Origin: a virus
Reading direction: 5' to 3' (one strand)
IMG/VR virus record: IMGVR_UViG_3300034272_001403
Coordinates: 1-22,642 of that record
Length of the DNA: 22,642 nucleotides
This document shows, piece after piece, positions 3 through 10,272 of this stretch. Both the position numbers and the translations under genes were made by a program. The notes beneath the pieces were generated by a model. It saw nothing but the letters and a program-made list of their open reading frames with translations. It searched no databases and was not told the DNA's origin. Position 1 is the first letter of the stretch; every line of letters begins with the position of its first letter.

Positions 3-926
3 GGTAGTGGTTCATCTTCATCTACGGAAACAAAGACTGAAACCAAAACGGAGACTAAAACTGAAACGAAATCTGAATCAAAATCGGAGAGTAAATCGGA
101 AAGTAAGACCGAAGAAAAGAAAGAAGAAACAAAATCGGAAAGCAAAGAAGAAAAGAAAGAGGAATCTAAATCGGAGGAGAAAAAAGAGGAGAAGAAGGAA
201 GAATCTAAAGAAGAAAAGAAAGAGGAGAAGAAGGAAGAAAAGAAAAAAGAGGAAAAAAAGAAAGTAGCAGCTAATCCAATGATGTTAGCTAGTGATTTAG
301 CTGGTACGGAAGATGCTGAAGGTAGATATGCAGTAATGATGAGTTTTGGTGTATCTAAATCATCCTTAATGGGAGACAAATCATATTCAGCTACCGCACT
401 TATTTGGAGTACCTTAAATCAATTTGCATTGAGTGCTGGGGTTACTAAGATGGATTTTGAAGATGGTAAACTAAACGCAATACATTCATACGGAACTACA
501 TTTGCATATCTTAAAGGAACTATAATGAACCTAAACGGATATACTTGGATTAAACCACATCCTAAACACGGAACATTTGGATACAATGTGGGTGTGATTA
601 CTTTAATGATGCAAAACGCAGTTAAAGGTGGATATGATGTATCTCTAAGTGCATCAGCAGTTGGATTTTGGATGAAACCATTCCCTTATAGTAGAAAGGT
701 TACCTTAACTCCGCAAGTATTCGTAATGCAATCTCCATTAGCTTGGAACACTGTAACTGGTGGGAGTACTGTAAATAGAACGCCGGGAGCAATATTAGGA
801 TTGGGATATGATTATAAATTAAGTAAAAGATTTGGATTTTCAGCAGCTTATAGAGCAGCAATATCATTTGTACCTGAATTTTCTTTATTAAATAATATTC
901 AAATCGGGTCAAAAATGATATTTTAG
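3..926 (+). CDS. Partial gene: Glu/Lys-rich linker plus outer-membrane beta-barrel-like domain
   Basis: The reading frame is open from the window edge, so the start and any signal peptide are missing; 307 residues are visible. After a short Gly/Ser stretch, residues 8-23 are four TETK units, 24-35 three SESK units, and about 36-87 are almost only Glu and Lys with i/i+4 charge pairing, typical of a stable single alpha helix. Residues about 95-307 contain alternating hydrophobic/polar segments rich in Gly, Tyr, Ser and Thr, and the protein ends in Ile-Phe, as transmembrane barrel proteins often do. A 215-codon call starting at the internal ATG at 279 would cut off the linker; the frame continues upstream without a stop. 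The next gene also looks like an envelope protein. I infer a beta-barrel or virion/envelope surface protein with a rigid spacer. I do not recognise a specific family. Confidence 0.75.
   Translation, partial: GSGSSSSTETKTETKTETKTETKSESKSESKSESKTEEKKEETKSESKEEKKEESKSEEKKEEKKEESKEEKKEEKKEEKKKEEKKKVAANPMMLASDLAGTEDAEGRYAVMMSFGVSKSSLMGDKSYSATALIWSTLNQFALSAGVTKMDFEDGKLNAIHSYGTTFAYLKGTIMNLNGYTWIKPHPKHGTFGYNVGVITLMMQNAVKGGYDVSLSASAVGFWMKPFPYSRKVTLTPQVFVMQSPLAWNTVTGGSTVNRTPGAILGLGYDYKLSKRFGFSAAYRAAISFVPEFSLLNNIQIGSKMIF
24..263 (+). repeat. Low-complexity coding repeat (TETK)4(SESK)3 then E/K-rich
   Basis: Purine-rich, codon-level degenerate repeat within the partial gene at the left edge. The protein repeat is regular, but synonymous codons vary: the SESK units alone use TCT, TCA, TCG and AGT for Ser. 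This suggests selection on the amino-acid pattern rather than recent replication slippage. Confidence 0.85.
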
Positions 927-963: not shown

Positions 964-1611
964 ATGAAAAAATTGTTGAACTTTAAGAATATAGCAATCG
1001 TAGCATTGATTATATTCGTTTTATTGCAGTGGTTTAACCCAGGTGATATATTACCGGGTAAGAAAGTATTCATAGCTGGTAAGGCATATGAAGTAATTAA
1101 GCACGAAATTGATACTATTGATATTGTGAAAACTAAAGTGGTAACTAAGAAAGGTGAAGATATCTACCATGAAACAATCGTAGAGAAAGAAGTAATCATC
1201 CCAACAGTAATTGATACTATGGCTTTATTAAAAGACTATTACTCAAAAGTATTATACAAAGATACATTAGTTTTACCTGATTCATTAGGTATTGTTGCTT
1301 TAAATGATACTATCACACAAAACAAAATATTAGGTAGAACCTTCAACGCAAGTGTTAAGCAAAGAACTATTAAAGAAACTACAATTGTAAAAGAATTACC
1401 TAAGACTAAATTATTTTATGGTTTAGAGGGTGGATTCAACAAAGCAGATTTTGTAAGTTCAGTAGGAGCTGGTGTTTTAATCAATACTAAGAAAGATAAG
1501 ATATATCAATTAGGTTTAGGTGTTACTAACCAAACAACTGATGGTGTAAATGGTGGATTCACTCCGTATGTTAGAGGTGGTGTTTATTGGAAACTTAAAT
1601 TAAAGAAATAA
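964..1611 (+). CDS. Membrane-anchored protein with beta-rich C-terminus (unknown; spanin-like layout)
   Basis: This 215-aa protein has a basic N-terminus (MKK) and one hydrophobic segment at about residues 10-23, then an Asp-Pro-Gly-rich exit, fitting an N-terminal inner-membrane anchor with the rest in the periplasm. Residues 40-145 are charged and rich in Val/Ile/Thr. Residues 148-215 hold about four Gly-rich alternating strands (for example YGLEGGF, VGAGVLI, LGLGVTN, YVRGGVYWKL) like barrel strands. There is no Cys-containing lipobox. It follows a barrel-like gene and has its own promoter-like motif. A plausible but unproven role is bridging or disturbing the two host membranes, as spanins do at lysis; modification of the infected cell envelope is an alternative. 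I do not recognise a family. Confidence 0.8.
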   Translation: MKKLLNFKNIAIVALIIFVLLQWFNPGDILPGKKVFIAGKAYEVIKHEIDTIDIVKTKVVTKKGEDIYHETIVEKEVIIPTVIDTMALLKDYYSKVLYKDTLVLPDSLGIVALNDTITQNKILGRTFNASVKQRTIKETTIVKELPKTKLFYGLEGGFNKADFVSSVGAGVLINTKKDKIYQLGLGVTNQTTDGVNGGFTPYVRGGVYWKLKLKK

Positions 1612-5267: not shown

Positions 5268-6365
5268 ATGTCTTGGGAAATATTTAGAAAAAATATATTA
5301 AATATTGCACTTAGACCGGAAAATGTCAATAATACTGACCTTATAGCAAAAGCATACGCTAGAGAATATGATTTAGCGGTTAAGAGAGGAGGTGATGTTG
5401 TAAATAAAGTACCATTACAAAAAGGAAATATTAAAGCTATGGAAGCATATTTCAAAAAAGCTTTAGATAATGGACTTAACTATAATGAAAAATATGATTT
5501 AGTTGGTGAAATGGGAAAGGGTGTAATTGCATATTGGAGTACTCAACAAGCACCAACACCACTACTGCCGGAAAATCAACCACCCCCAACTGCAATACAA
5601 ATGAATCGTTTTCCAATACCATTAGTAACAATAGAACAATTGGTAAGTGGAGTTACGGCTAATATTGTGGTTAATTCAAATATAGTAACAAATCCCGGAA
5701 AATGGATTAAACCATTAGCGGCTATAAATAATAATCAACAAGCAAACAATAATACAGCAAGAGGTGGTAGTGGTAGTACTGCACAGCCATTGGAAGCAAG
5801 TACAACTGAAAAAATACTGTTTGTAGGAGATTCCATATCAGCAATACAAACCCCAACCGGTGAAATGGTAAGTTGGACATATCCAGCACAAGTTAAAAAA
5901 TCATTACCAAATGCAGTTGTTGATGTATTGGCAATTGGGGGTAAACAAACATCATGGATGTTACAAAATTTACCAAATCAATTAGCAACTACTAAATATA
6001 ATAGAGTTTACATATATGGGGGTACTAATGATATATTTTCTCAAATACCAATAAAAACAGTATTAAGTAATATACAAAAAATGGTTGATTTGGCAGTTTC
6101 AAATGGAGCTAAAGCATATGTTATACTTGGATACAGCACACAAAATATGGATTATACTAAAATGCCAACAACTTCATATGTAAGAAATAAAGTTGATTAT
6201 ATTCCTATGATAGAAAATTATAAAAAATATCAAGAATCAATTCCAACTACAATTACTAATGCACAATTTATAGGAATATTTGATATCGGAACATTAAGTG
6301 ATGGATTTCATCCAAGTGGAGCTCAAGCTAGACAAATTGCAAATATAATAATAAACGCTTTATAA
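5268..6365 (+). CDS. SGNH/GDSL-family hydrolase fused to hub-associated N-terminal domain
   Basis: This 365-aa protein has two parts. Residues 1-165 are a helical domain followed by a Pro/Asn-rich linker ending in a Gly-Ser stretch. Residues about 182-365 are a complete SGNH hydrolase: block I G187-D188-S189 (nucleophile Ser), block II Gly224 in IGG, block III G252-T253-N254-D255, and block V D345-G-F-H348. The family removes acyl groups from polysaccharides, peptidoglycan or lipids. In a baseplate hub cluster, a role in deacetylating surface glycan or peptidoglycan during entry is likely. No signal peptide is present, fitting a virion-borne enzyme. It starts one base after the heptad-repeat gene and overlaps the next gene by one base (TAATG). 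Enzyme-family assignment is strong; the substrate is inferred. Confidence 0.85.
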   Translation: MSWEIFRKNILNIALRPENVNNTDLIAKAYAREYDLAVKRGGDVVNKVPLQKGNIKAMEAYFKKALDNGLNYNEKYDLVGEMGKGVIAYWSTQQAPTPLLPENQPPPTAIQMNRFPIPLVTIEQLVSGVTANIVVNSNIVTNPGKWIKPLAAINNNQQANNNTARGGSGSTAQPLEASTTEKILFVGDSISAIQTPTGEMVSWTYPAQVKKSLPNAVVDVLAIGGKQTSWMLQNLPNQLATTKYNRVYIYGGTNDIFSQIPIKTVLSNIQKMVDLAVSNGAKAYVILGYSTQNMDYTKMPTTSYVRNKVDYIPMIENYKKYQESIPTTITNAQFIGIFDIGTLSDGFHPSGAQARQIANIIINAL

Positions 6366-7300: not shown

Positions 7301-7801
7301 ATGGACATGGATAAACTATTAGAAGCCATTCAAATTCTTATTAAAGAGGAGCTTAAAGAGCAATTACCTGCTTTAATTAAGGAAGGTGTGAAGGCTGAAA
7401 TGAAAAAAATGCTATCTGAAACAAAAGTAGCACCAAAACCACAATCAAAGGGTATTTCAATGGCTAAGGCTATTTTAGGAGATGAACCAATTCAAGAATC
7501 AGTTCAAACTAAATCAGTACCAACAAAGCAATATAGCAAAAACCCAATGATTAATCAAATCCTAAATGAAACAAGAGGTGGAATACCACAAGGTGATGGT
7601 GGATTTAGAACAATGAATTTTGGACAAGGTGATATGGGTTCAATTGTAGGTGGAACTGCATTAGCTGAAAAAATGGGGTATAGTGATATGGCTAAAGGAC
7701 CTCAACCAACTGGATTGGGTGTAAACACTGGAGTAGCTGAAATAGATAAAGCATTGAATAGAGATTATTCAGAACTTGTAAAAAGATTTAAAAAGAAGTA
7801 A
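7301..7801 (+). CDS. Unknown 166-aa protein heading the wedge operon
   Basis: The N-terminal 45 residues form a charged amphipathic helix (for example LLEAIQILIKEELKEQLPALI), probably a coiled coil. The middle is low-complexity and Gly/Gln-rich (about 95-125), and the C-terminus is basic, ending KRFKKK. There is no membrane segment or signal peptide. It is the first gene after a promoter-like motif and overlaps gp25 by one base (TAATG). T4 has gp53 beside gp25-type wedge genes, but I see no LysM or other gp53 feature, so I do not assign it. A wedge assembly factor or small structural protein is possible. ATG at 7307 is an alternative start. Confidence 0.75.
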   Translation: MDMDKLLEAIQILIKEELKEQLPALIKEGVKAEMKKMLSETKVAPKPQSKGISMAKAILGDEPIQESVQTKSVPTKQYSKNPMINQILNETRGGIPQGDGGFRTMNFGQGDMGSIVGGTALAEKMGYSDMAKGPQPTGLGVNTGVAEIDKALNRDYSELVKRFKKK

Positions 7802-8232
7802 TGGCAGTAGTATTAGGAACATATATAGTAAATAGTTCAACTGAACAATTAAATGATTATGCGATAGGATTATCATTGCCACTACAAATGACATCTAATA
7901 CTTTTAACCAAACATATGATAATTTAGTACAATTAAAATCAAATGTAAGAAATTTACTTTTAACTAAAAAAGGAGAAAGAATCGGCCAACCCAATTTTGG
8001 TACTAATTTACATAGATTATTATTTGAACCAAATGATGATAGTCTTGAAGATAAAATATTCCAAGCGGTAGATTCTGCCATTAGACTTTGGCTACCTCAA
8101 TTGAGCATTAATGAGATAAATATAGAAGCAACAGATGAAATGAAAGATTTAAATGAAGTATCTGTCAGTATTACATTTACAGCTAATTATAATAGTCAAA
8201 GTTTTAAAGTAGATTTTAATATAAACGGATAA
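7801..8232 (+). CDS. 25: Baseplate wedge protein gp25 (GPW/gp25 family)
   Basis: This 143-aa protein is near the usual length (T4 gp25 is 132 aa). Residues 48-77 carry the family signature: N-V-R-N-L-L-L-T, then G-E-R (58-60), P64, F-G (66-67) and L-F-E-P (74-77). gp25 clamps the (gp6)2-gp7 wedge near the tail tube and joins the sheath initiation complex in contractile machines; the equivalent is W in phage P2. Its position directly before gp6 matches the wedge gene order of contractile phages. Start and end are set by the TAATG overlap upstream and a three-base gap to gp6. Confidence 0.93.
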   Translation: MAVVLGTYIVNSSTEQLNDYAIGLSLPLQMTSNTFNQTYDNLVQLKSNVRNLLLTKKGERIGQPNFGTNLHRLLFEPNDDSLEDKIFQAVDSAIRLWLPQLSINEINIEATDEMKDLNEVSVSITFTANYNSQSFKVDFNING

Positions 8233-8235
8233 CAT

Positions 8236-10272
8236 ATGGCACTTAATAATACAAATACAAATTTTAAAAATAAAGGAAAGGATATAAAATACCTTAATAA
8301 AGATTTTAATGCTTTTAAGGAAAATTTAATTGAATTCGCAAAAACATATTTTCCAAAAACATATAACGATTTTAGTGAGGCATCTCCTGGTACTATGTTT
8401 ATCGAAATGGCATCTTATGTAGGAGATACTTTATCTTATTATATAGATGATACATTTAAGCAATCATTGATGTTATATGCAGATGATATGCAAAGTATAA
8501 TACCATTAGCTAGATACTTAGGATATAAACCAAAAGTAACTGCACCAGCTGTAACAAAATTATCTGTATATCAATTAGTTCCTTCAATTGGGGTAAGTGC
8601 AAATAATATGCCTGATTCAAAATATTATATTAGGATTAAGGCTGGGATGCATGCTCGTTCATCTGTAAATAGTATAAATTTTATAACGAAAGATATTGTA
8701 GATTTTTCAGATGAAAATAATAGAGAAATTACAGTTTACGAAAGAGATAATCAAACGGGAGAACCAACTTATTATCTTGTAAAAAAGTATGTAGATGCAA
8801 CTGCAGGTACTGTTGTAACTAAATCATATGAATTTGATTCGTATTCACCATATCAAAGAATTGAGTTACCTGAAGATAATATAATAGAAATATTAGATTG
8901 TAGAGATTCAAATAATAATAAATGGTATGAAGTTCCATATTTAGCACAAGAAATGGTTTTCATTGAACAGCCAAATACTGAAGCAAACGATCCTGATTTA
9001 TATCAATTTAAATCAACCATTCCATTTATATTAAAAACATTAAAAACACCAAGAAGATTTGTAACTAGTATAAATGGCGATAGAACCACTACTTTACAAT
9101 TTGGAGCTGGCGATTCAACTGCATCTGATGAACAACTAATTCCAAATCTAAAAAATGTTGGATTGGGATTACCAAATTCTATTAGTAGATTAGAAGAATC
9201 ATTTGACCCTACCAATTTCTTAAAAACAAAAACATATGGTACATCGCCTGCAAATACAACAATTTCTGTTAAATATTTAATAGGTGGTGGTATTATATCA
9301 AATGTACCGGCAAATTCTATAACTACAATAGATAGTATTGAATTTGATGAAGATACAAGTTACTTCAATACACAGCAATTATCTTTATATATTAGAATGA
9401 AAGATTCAATTGCAATAGATAACGAAATTCCAGCAACTGGTGGTAGAAGTGGTGATAGTATAAATGAAATAAGAGAAAATGCATTAGCAAATTTTTCCGC
9501 ACAAAATAGAGCAGTAACTGCAAAAGATTATCAAGTTAGAGCATTATCAATGCCTTCAAAATTTGGAGCAATTGCAAAAGCATATGCAACTGCAGATGGT
9601 ACACTGGATAATAATTCCCCATCATCTATATTAGCATCTCCTAATCATTTGCAAGAATTTACCGATTTGGTGATGAGTTTTGTTAATAACCCTGATGCAT
9701 TAGAACCATCTCAAGCTGAAGTAAAAGAACAAATAACAAAATTTTTAGTTGGAAAAACTTCTAATGAAAATGAAAAGAACAATCCATTTGCAATAAATTT
9801 ATATTTGTTAGCATATGATGTAAATGGTAATATGACAAATATTAACAGAGCAGTTAAAGAAAATCTCAAAACATATTTAAATGAATACAAAATATTAACA
9901 GATGGTGTTAATATGCTAGATGGATTTGTTATTAATATTGGAATTGATTTTGAAATTATATGTTATCCAAACTATAATAAAAGTGAGATATTAATACAAT
10001 GTATAAGTTCCCTAAGAGATTATTTTTCGATAGATAATATGACATTTAATCAAACAATAAATTTGAGCGAAATTGAATTATTATTAGCTAATATTGAAGG
10101 AGTATCATCTGTACCAATGTTAAAAATAACAAATAAATGTGGTGGTAATTATGCACCTCATTCTTATAATATAGATGCAGCAACTAAAGATAAGATTGTA
10201 TATCCATCTTTAGACCCATCGGTTTTTGAAATAAAGTTTCCAGATTCAGATATTAAAGGTAGAGTAAGATAA
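8236..10272 (+). CDS. 6: Baseplate wedge protein gp6-like (baseplate J family)
   Basis: This 678-aa protein is close to T4 gp6 (660 aa). The N-terminal block at residues 46-90 (including FIEMASYVGDTLSYYID and a LARYLGYKP segment) is typical of gp6-like wedge proteins. Residues about 420-450 hold a J-type block (NRAVTAKDYQVRALSM followed by FGAIAKAYA). The C-terminal third has the beta/helix domains expected for dimer contact (about 540-640). gp6 forms the iris ring of the baseplate and reorganises on sheath contraction. It follows gp25 by three bases and overlaps the next gene by one base (TAATG). I saw no internal stop or frameshift. Confidence 0.9.
   Translation: MALNNTNTNFKNKGKDIKYLNKDFNAFKENLIEFAKTYFPKTYNDFSEASPGTMFIEMASYVGDTLSYYIDDTFKQSLMLYADDMQSIIPLARYLGYKPKVTAPAVTKLSVYQLVPSIGVSANNMPDSKYYIRIKAGMHARSSVNSINFITKDIVDFSDENNREITVYERDNQTGEPTYYLVKKYVDATAGTVVTKSYEFDSYSPYQRIELPEDNIIEILDCRDSNNNKWYEVPYLAQEMVFIEQPNTEANDPDLYQFKSTIPFILKTLKTPRRFVTSINGDRTTTLQFGAGDSTASDEQLIPNLKNVGLGLPNSISRLEESFDPTNFLKTKTYGTSPANTTISVKYLIGGGIISNVPANSITTIDSIEFDEDTSYFNTQQLSLYIRMKDSIAIDNEIPATGGRSGDSINEIRENALANFSAQNRAVTAKDYQVRALSMPSKFGAIAKAYATADGTLDNNSPSSILASPNHLQEFTDLVMSFVNNPDALEPSQAEVKEQITKFLVGKTSNENEKNNPFAINLYLLAYDVNGNMTNINRAVKENLKTYLNEYKILTDGVNMLDGFVINIGIDFEIICYPNYNKSEILIQCISSLRDYFSIDNMTFNQTINLSEIELLLANIEGVSSVPMLKITNKCGGNYAPHSYNIDAATKDKIVYPSLDPSVFEIKFPDSDIKGRVR

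Follow-up and report, generated by a model that had tools for sequence, protein, structure and literature searches.

What would a phage do with a protein that joins a long charged repeat to a putative outer-membrane barrel? The question is raised by the first frame of the window analyzed here, a whole virus record of 22,642 bases with 30.5% GC. This frame (3-926, plus strand), which we call OMP2, has no stop between the edge of the contig and its terminal TAG and encodes 307 residues ending in ...IGSKMIF. A Shine-Dalgarno-like motif lies ahead of 1 of the 21 main starts in the window, a Bacteroidota-like pattern. The gene is divided as follows.

3-926, plus strand: OMP2, 5'-truncated; last 307 residues of a ~495-residue protein predicted to be an exported outer-membrane barrel protein
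3-23, plus strand: end of the Ser/Gly leash (GSGSSSS); an Ala/Pro/Ser leash lies farther upstream in the relative L002
24-263, plus strand: E/K/S/T period-4 polyampholyte leash of 80 residues, with near-zero net charge and an anti-helical charge pattern
264-923, plus strand: predicted C-terminal 12-stranded outer-membrane beta-barrel with a 216-residue core (276-923) and a Phe end, from alignments, model and loop entropy

The full-length protein and its relatives

The copy in the window is without its gene start, and ~190 N-terminal residues are missing in comparison with L002, a relative whose barrel is 97% identical and which supplies the missing part. The full-length plan comprises a signal peptide, an N-domain, Ala/Ser repeats, Pro and Ser/Gly runs, the E/K stretch and the C-terminal domain. 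Computationally, this order is constant in all 28 distinct complete OMP2 proteins, drawn from 32 loci with the N-domain after exclusion of three duplicates and one copy cut by a contig end. Viral relatives numbered 38 in a first scan and 86 in a second (80 kept), and a search with the N-domain missing from the window gave 217 loci (80 kept). Their barrels go down to 32% identity with that of L002, and the barrel has a median dN/dS of 0.15 over 17 pairwise comparisons with the window. Because of these many viral relatives and this median, the OMP2 pattern is not a product of chance. The carriers are a common, widespread group of lake viruses infecting Bacteroidota. In two contigs (L084:344-2407; L100:5586-7034) the gene takes another form, one holding an in-frame OMP1-OMP2 fusion (692-residue open frame) and the other an OMP2 split by a stop; these may be either assembly errors or real.

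No Pfam, NCBIfam or PHROG model matched OMP2 with a score that passed the cut-off or carried meaning, and profiles of the N-domain and of the barrel gave nothing useful in a sequence search of the PDB. Of 34 pattern matches to bacterial homologues in a genome contig collection none was confirmed. Neither the barrel nor the N-domain found a match in the Aquirufa family (150 genomes), a weak result obtained with no positive control.

Whether the missing N-terminus held a signal peptide, a lipobox or a TM helix had been asked in the first-pass annotation, and the relatives supply the answer. A Sec signal peptide, absent from the truncated copy of the window, is present by inspection in 29/29 diverse full-length relatives, all of which carry Gln at +1 of the likely cleavage site. 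Gln after the cleavage site is described as the Bacteroidetes Q-rule (PMC5837995). With its SPI-type Q+1 and C-terminal barrel, OMP2 has no lipobox and no TM helix once the signal is cleaved, and hence is not a spanin by definition. The N-domain comprises ~66 residues with two invariant Cys and is predicted by AlphaFold to be beta/alpha in L002, where the Ala-rich residues 90-139 are predicted as helical at pLDDT < 50.

A cultured cousin occurs in Flavobacterium phage immuto. Its protein immuto35A_18 has a signal peptide and a long linker, as well as a C-terminal beta domain whose last residue is F. The N-domain is homologous to that of OMP2 (hhalign probability 94.8); for the barrel region, homology to the OMP2 barrel was not demonstrable by hhalign (probability 3.3). 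The linker is uncharged, being made of N/T/G/S with no E/K stretch. The Q-rule, the immuto cousin and a TonB-dependent receptor/lipoprotein pair matching Aquirufa together indicate that the hosts are Bacteroidota, in line with the host type first proposed, and within Bacteroidota they are probably Cytophagales or Flavobacteria.

The charged leash and the predicted barrel

The frame had been described as an 80-residue E/K/S/T run followed by a beta-patterned domain ending in Phe, and this description is confirmed. Residues 8-87 (nt 24-263) consist solely of E (30), K (29), S (11) and T (10) in a near-strict period of 4, and the net charge of the E/K stretch is held between -2 and +4. The accompanying claim of a rigid single-helix linker does not survive inspection of the charge pairs. 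At spacing i,i+4, the window leash contains 3 attractive and 47 repulsive pairs; shuffled versions have ~21 and 20, and E4K4 has 76 and 0. Pooling of 29 relatives gives 109 attractive vs 1095 repulsive pairs, L101, L105 and L116 departing from this pattern. Peptides of the E2K2 type form helices poorly. The helical charged peptides in print are of the E4K4 type, as described in PMC9281390. In the AlphaFold model of L002, the E/K stretch has a pLDDT of ~30-40, with a helix at residues 256-273 only. The repulsive i,i+4 pairing led us to reject a rigid single alpha-helix (SAH), and both the low pLDDT and the uncharged linker of the immuto cousin point the same way.

The proposed spacer spanning the periplasm fares better, as the whole leash measures 130-243 residues across OMP2 relatives and is long enough. 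We read it as a flexible, disordered polyampholyte that could cross the periplasm whichever way it pointed. Leash matches to Presenilin, TolA and other E/K-rich models were set aside as low-complexity composition.

The synonymous codon variation reported for the repeat is borne out as well. Same-residue codons four residues apart are identical in 28/57 cases, compared with 26.4 in codon shuffles, so that nothing points to the repeat having been duplicated recently as DNA. Two codon choices are enriched here, GAG (10/30 vs 12% elsewhere, p = 0.002) and ACG plus ACC (5/10 vs 9% elsewhere, p = 0.001). Rare synonymous codons are commoner in window 24-263, as if DNA repeats were selected against.

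An AlphaFold model made on L002 with a 29-row alignment has a mean pLDDT of 57 and a pTM of 0.42, with 12 strands and a pLDDT of ~65-85 over most of residues 297-493. Foldseek gave 12 matches at E <= 0.001, every one an outer-membrane barrel, with NanC as the best (3e-6). The VIA comparisons gave NalP (Z 19.0; 235 aligned, 3.4 A) and EspP (Z 18.4), whose alignments also cover the low-confidence leash helix (pLDDT < 50), as well as KdgM (Z 17.7; 166 residues, 2.3 A) and FapF (Z 17.0; 212 residues, 3.2 A).

The alignment of 73 barrel sequences offers a view independent of the model. Entropy, computed with kinship ignored, is 1.74 in the predicted outer loops vs 0.81 in the inner turns (p = 1.3e-4), and all gaps fall in predicted outer loops; such variability of alternate loops fits a barrel topology. 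Position -7 is I/V and position -9 F/I/V in 73/73 barrels, and as to the terminal aromatic of a C-terminal beta-signal, 37 of the 73 end in F and 36 in L. PF03797 matched 0/29 barrel members at E 0.1, and no other barrel family scored above cut-off. AlphaFold, Foldseek/VIA and loop variability thus agree on the outer-membrane barrel suspected at first pass; the predicted fold did not turn out to be that of a tail fibre or another non-barrel structure. As modelled, the C-terminal domain of OMP2 is a 12-stranded outer-membrane barrel.

The order of signal, passenger, linker and 12-stranded barrel, the NalP and EspP translocators as best VIA matches and predicted lumen residues that are mostly small or polar would all suit an autotransporter-like display, with the N-domain and leash threaded through the barrel and exposed outside as an adhesin or decoy. 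Type Va autotransporters (NalP 1uyn, EspP) indeed share with OMP2 an N-terminal passenger and a C-terminal 12-strand barrel. They differ in that the PF03797 profile is not matched by OMP2, and the leash helix is placed at a pLDDT below 50. Furthermore, FapF has the same barrel yet a periplasmic N-terminus (PMC5557850). We therefore see this display as possible, though on the doubtful side.

FapF, a secretion channel for functional amyloid in Pseudomonas (PDB 5o65/5o67/5o68), resembles OMP2 in its signal peptide, N-terminal domain, disordered linker and 12-strand AT-like barrel. It is unlike OMP2 in being bacterial, and the identity is 7-8%. FapF has a coiled coil that is trimeric and a plug helix that is resolved in the structure; OMP2 for its part has a two-Cys N-domain predicted as beta/alpha and an E/K-rich leash of 130-243 residues. 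The mobile linker of FapF is modelled in the same source (PMC5557850) as able to span the periplasm, and its N-terminus is shown there to be accessible only after cell lysis.

Gene neighbourhood

The following genes of the window bear on the company that OMP2 keeps.

964-1611, plus strand: IManch, with an N-terminal TM helix, a periplasmic-type middle and four C-terminal strands
7801-8232: gp25-like baseplate gene
8236-10272: gp6-like baseplate gene

In the clade of the window, OMP1, OMP2 and IManch follow in order, with baseplate genes after them. IManch adjoins OMP2 in 60/80 kept loci, making it a frequent, not a constant, partner. VIA comparison of its fold gave a best Z of 5.8, with the trimeric autotransporter anchors Hia/AtaA at ~5, which is too low to mean anything.

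A position ahead of the gp25-like and gp6-like genes could hint at a virion (tail) protein. Against this stand the signal peptide, the barrel fold and the linkage: the baseplate wedge gene lies at least 32 kb from OMP2, circular genomes allowed, in all but one of the 11 larger genomes, immuto being among the 10 (from 12 contigs, G160 and G162 were dropped as having no baseplate match, and immuto was added from annotation). The linkage led us to reject OMP2 as a tail protein, a role that we consider very improbable, and the baseplate neighbours are peculiar to the clade of the window. Hence the "phage late region" of the first-pass annotation describes this clade and is not general, as the wedge is more than 30 kb off in 10/11 genomes.

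Two further features of the window were recorded. A GDSL/SGNH hydrolase domain (PF13472, 2e-12) is present in a baseplate-region protein at 5268-6365. The motif TATAAATA, the core of T4 late promoters, occurs at 5723, 10754, 12698 and 13570, none of these being near OMP2 or IManch.

Around OMP2 in 34 other loci, an A9 gene is near in 31, a Pro/Trp-rich lipoprotein in 14, OMP1 in 12 and IManch in 5. Two-TM genes judged holin-like by eye are near in 14/34, and an exported DNA/RNA non-specific endonuclease (PF01223) lies just downstream in 10/34, e.g. L170:5731-6366. DNA on its way into the cell could be degraded by this nuclease in the periplasm. A TonB-dependent receptor with plug and barrel profiles (PF14905, PF07715) is found upstream of OMP2 in some relatives. 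It is 65% identical to an Aquirufa antheringensis receptor (L120), and the lipoprotein beside the phage receptor is 71% identical to the gene adjoining the Aquirufa receptor. Representatives of these partners are located as follows.

L030:419-1147 and immuto35A_17 (L205:8294-9007): A9 family, secreted, 240 residues; immuto35A_17 is directly upstream of immuto35A_18
L035:868-3120 and L026:2409-3605: TonB receptor and lipoprotein pair, also in L060, L082, L088, L090, L092 and L098

A9 looks CsgG-like by eye, though PF03783 matched 0/7 records at E 1 while control genomes matched, and this assignment was rejected.

Six regions (L207-L212) consist of islands of exported proteins that lead up to OMP2 and lie nearly all on one strand. 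They contain endolysin, secreted proteins of large size, lipoproteins, membrane proteins of small size and A9 in a set that varies by region, and some also a glycosyltransferase and an LpxH-like phosphoesterase. These islands adjoin a GH19 endolysin and include secreted proteins of ~550 and ~764 residues. At L013:2326-3761, a glycosyltransferase of family 2 lies beside a phosphoesterase whose LpxH-like match falls short of the NCBIfam cut-off; the pair suggests a change of lipid A or LPS. Overall, OMP2 keeps the company of envelope proteins, not of tail proteins.

Lysis is the main rival to the reading that we prefer below. OMP2 and its IM-anchored or lipoprotein partners would here form a device for lysis at the outer membrane, analogous to a spanin, with the leash reaching across the periplasm. 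The adjacency of an outer-membrane barrel gene to IM-anchored IManch in most kept loci speaks for it, as do the holin-like genes and the Pro-rich lipoproteins, each in 14/34 loci. Of 14 genomes searched for peptidoglycan hydrolases, 13 gave a match, and in 9 of these one lies no more than 14 kb from OMP2, which would also suit lysis; in L158 a GH19 endolysin is 0.6 kb away. This clustering is modest, with Fisher p = 0.005 (circular) or 0.027 (linear) and kinship ignored; the test left out G156 (GH19 below cut-off) and G155 (no match). In immuto, by contrast, the GH19 gene neighbours an annotated holin (43.7-44.7 kb), and the two are 28 kb away from the OMP2 cousin. Moreover, IManch is found in only 5/34 loci outside the window's own clade, and the holin-like genes near OMP2 match no holin family. 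We judge a lysis device to be unlikely.

The exported nuclease in 10/34 loci and a TonB receptor close to a host gene might instead point at uptake, with OMP2 as a porin that, together with these two proteins, feeds the infected cell with nutrients or nucleotides. KdgM and NanC, which are 12-strand substrate porins, share the barrel fold of OMP2, and to our knowledge have neither leash nor N-domain. The receptor and the nuclease each occur in some phages only, and neither a leash nor a conserved N-domain would be required in a mere porin, leaving uptake improbable.

A proposed role in the host envelope

In the reading that we favor, a barrel resembling FapF or an autotransporter would serve to remodel the envelope or to exclude superinfection; we assign it a probability of roughly 45% and rank it first, above lysis. 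This estimate overlaps with that for surface display, the latter concerning topology and the former role. The phage would make OMP2 in the infected Bacteroidota cell, where it would be exported by Sec and cut by signal peptidase I before Gln. It may then fold into the outer membrane with 12 strands and both barrel ends periplasmic, while the leash (Ala/Ser, Pro, Ser/Gly and E/K polyampholyte) would tether the barrel to the two-Cys N-domain. Its putative partners are OMP1 or the Pro-rich lipoprotein and the secreted A9 protein, joined in some phages by the TonB-dependent receptor and lipoprotein, by the glycosyltransferase and LpxH-like phosphoesterase, or by the exported nuclease. The exported set would remodel the host envelope, most likely hiding or replacing receptors and excluding competing phages. 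Architecture, barrel fold prediction, conservation and gene context are computational observations; that the barrel actually inserts into the membrane, on which side the N-domain lies and that exclusion is the role are inferred.

Surface remodelling against superinfection has been proposed for Bacteroidetes lake phages with LPS genes (PMC9723584), whose groups may differ from those carrying OMP2, and likewise for LPS and S-layer genes of jumbo phages (PMC7824862) and a methylophage (PMC9004378). Phage-carried outer-membrane pores are described in the form of CsgG/CsgF of pelagimyophages and methylophage Melnitz, a protein different from OMP2 (PMC7029224, PMC9004378). Among BFVD phage barrels, the outer membrane protein E1A206 of Aeromonas phage phiAS5, DUF481 and porin-like phage proteins resemble OMP2 by Foldseek similarity only, with 8-14% identity in four matches with E <= 0.001. 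Lambda Lom and the PA-2 Lc porin are also phage-encoded outer-membrane barrels. Hence barrels of this kind in phages are already known, and what is new is this barrel family with its unusual leash and widespread gene island. Its novelty follows from the missing family-model match and from the literature on phage-encoded outer-membrane barrels, TonB receptors and porins, in which no description of the OMP2 family was found in titles and abstract openings.

A bolder and rather improbable proposal makes OMP2 the gated outer-membrane piece of a phage-built export/display machine, together with small IM proteins, A9 and the lipoprotein or OMP1. If true, the large exported island proteins would reach the surface, and the infected cell would wear a virus-made coat. 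With immuto and its host in culture, the role of OMP2 can be tested by gene removal.

The usual view of virulent phages is that few of their genes are devoted to the surface of the host ahead of lysis. The widespread group of lake phages described here maintains a block of exported proteins that includes an unnamed barrel family with a range of identity down to ~32%, carried on a charge-patterned leash that resembles a rigid helix yet is not one.
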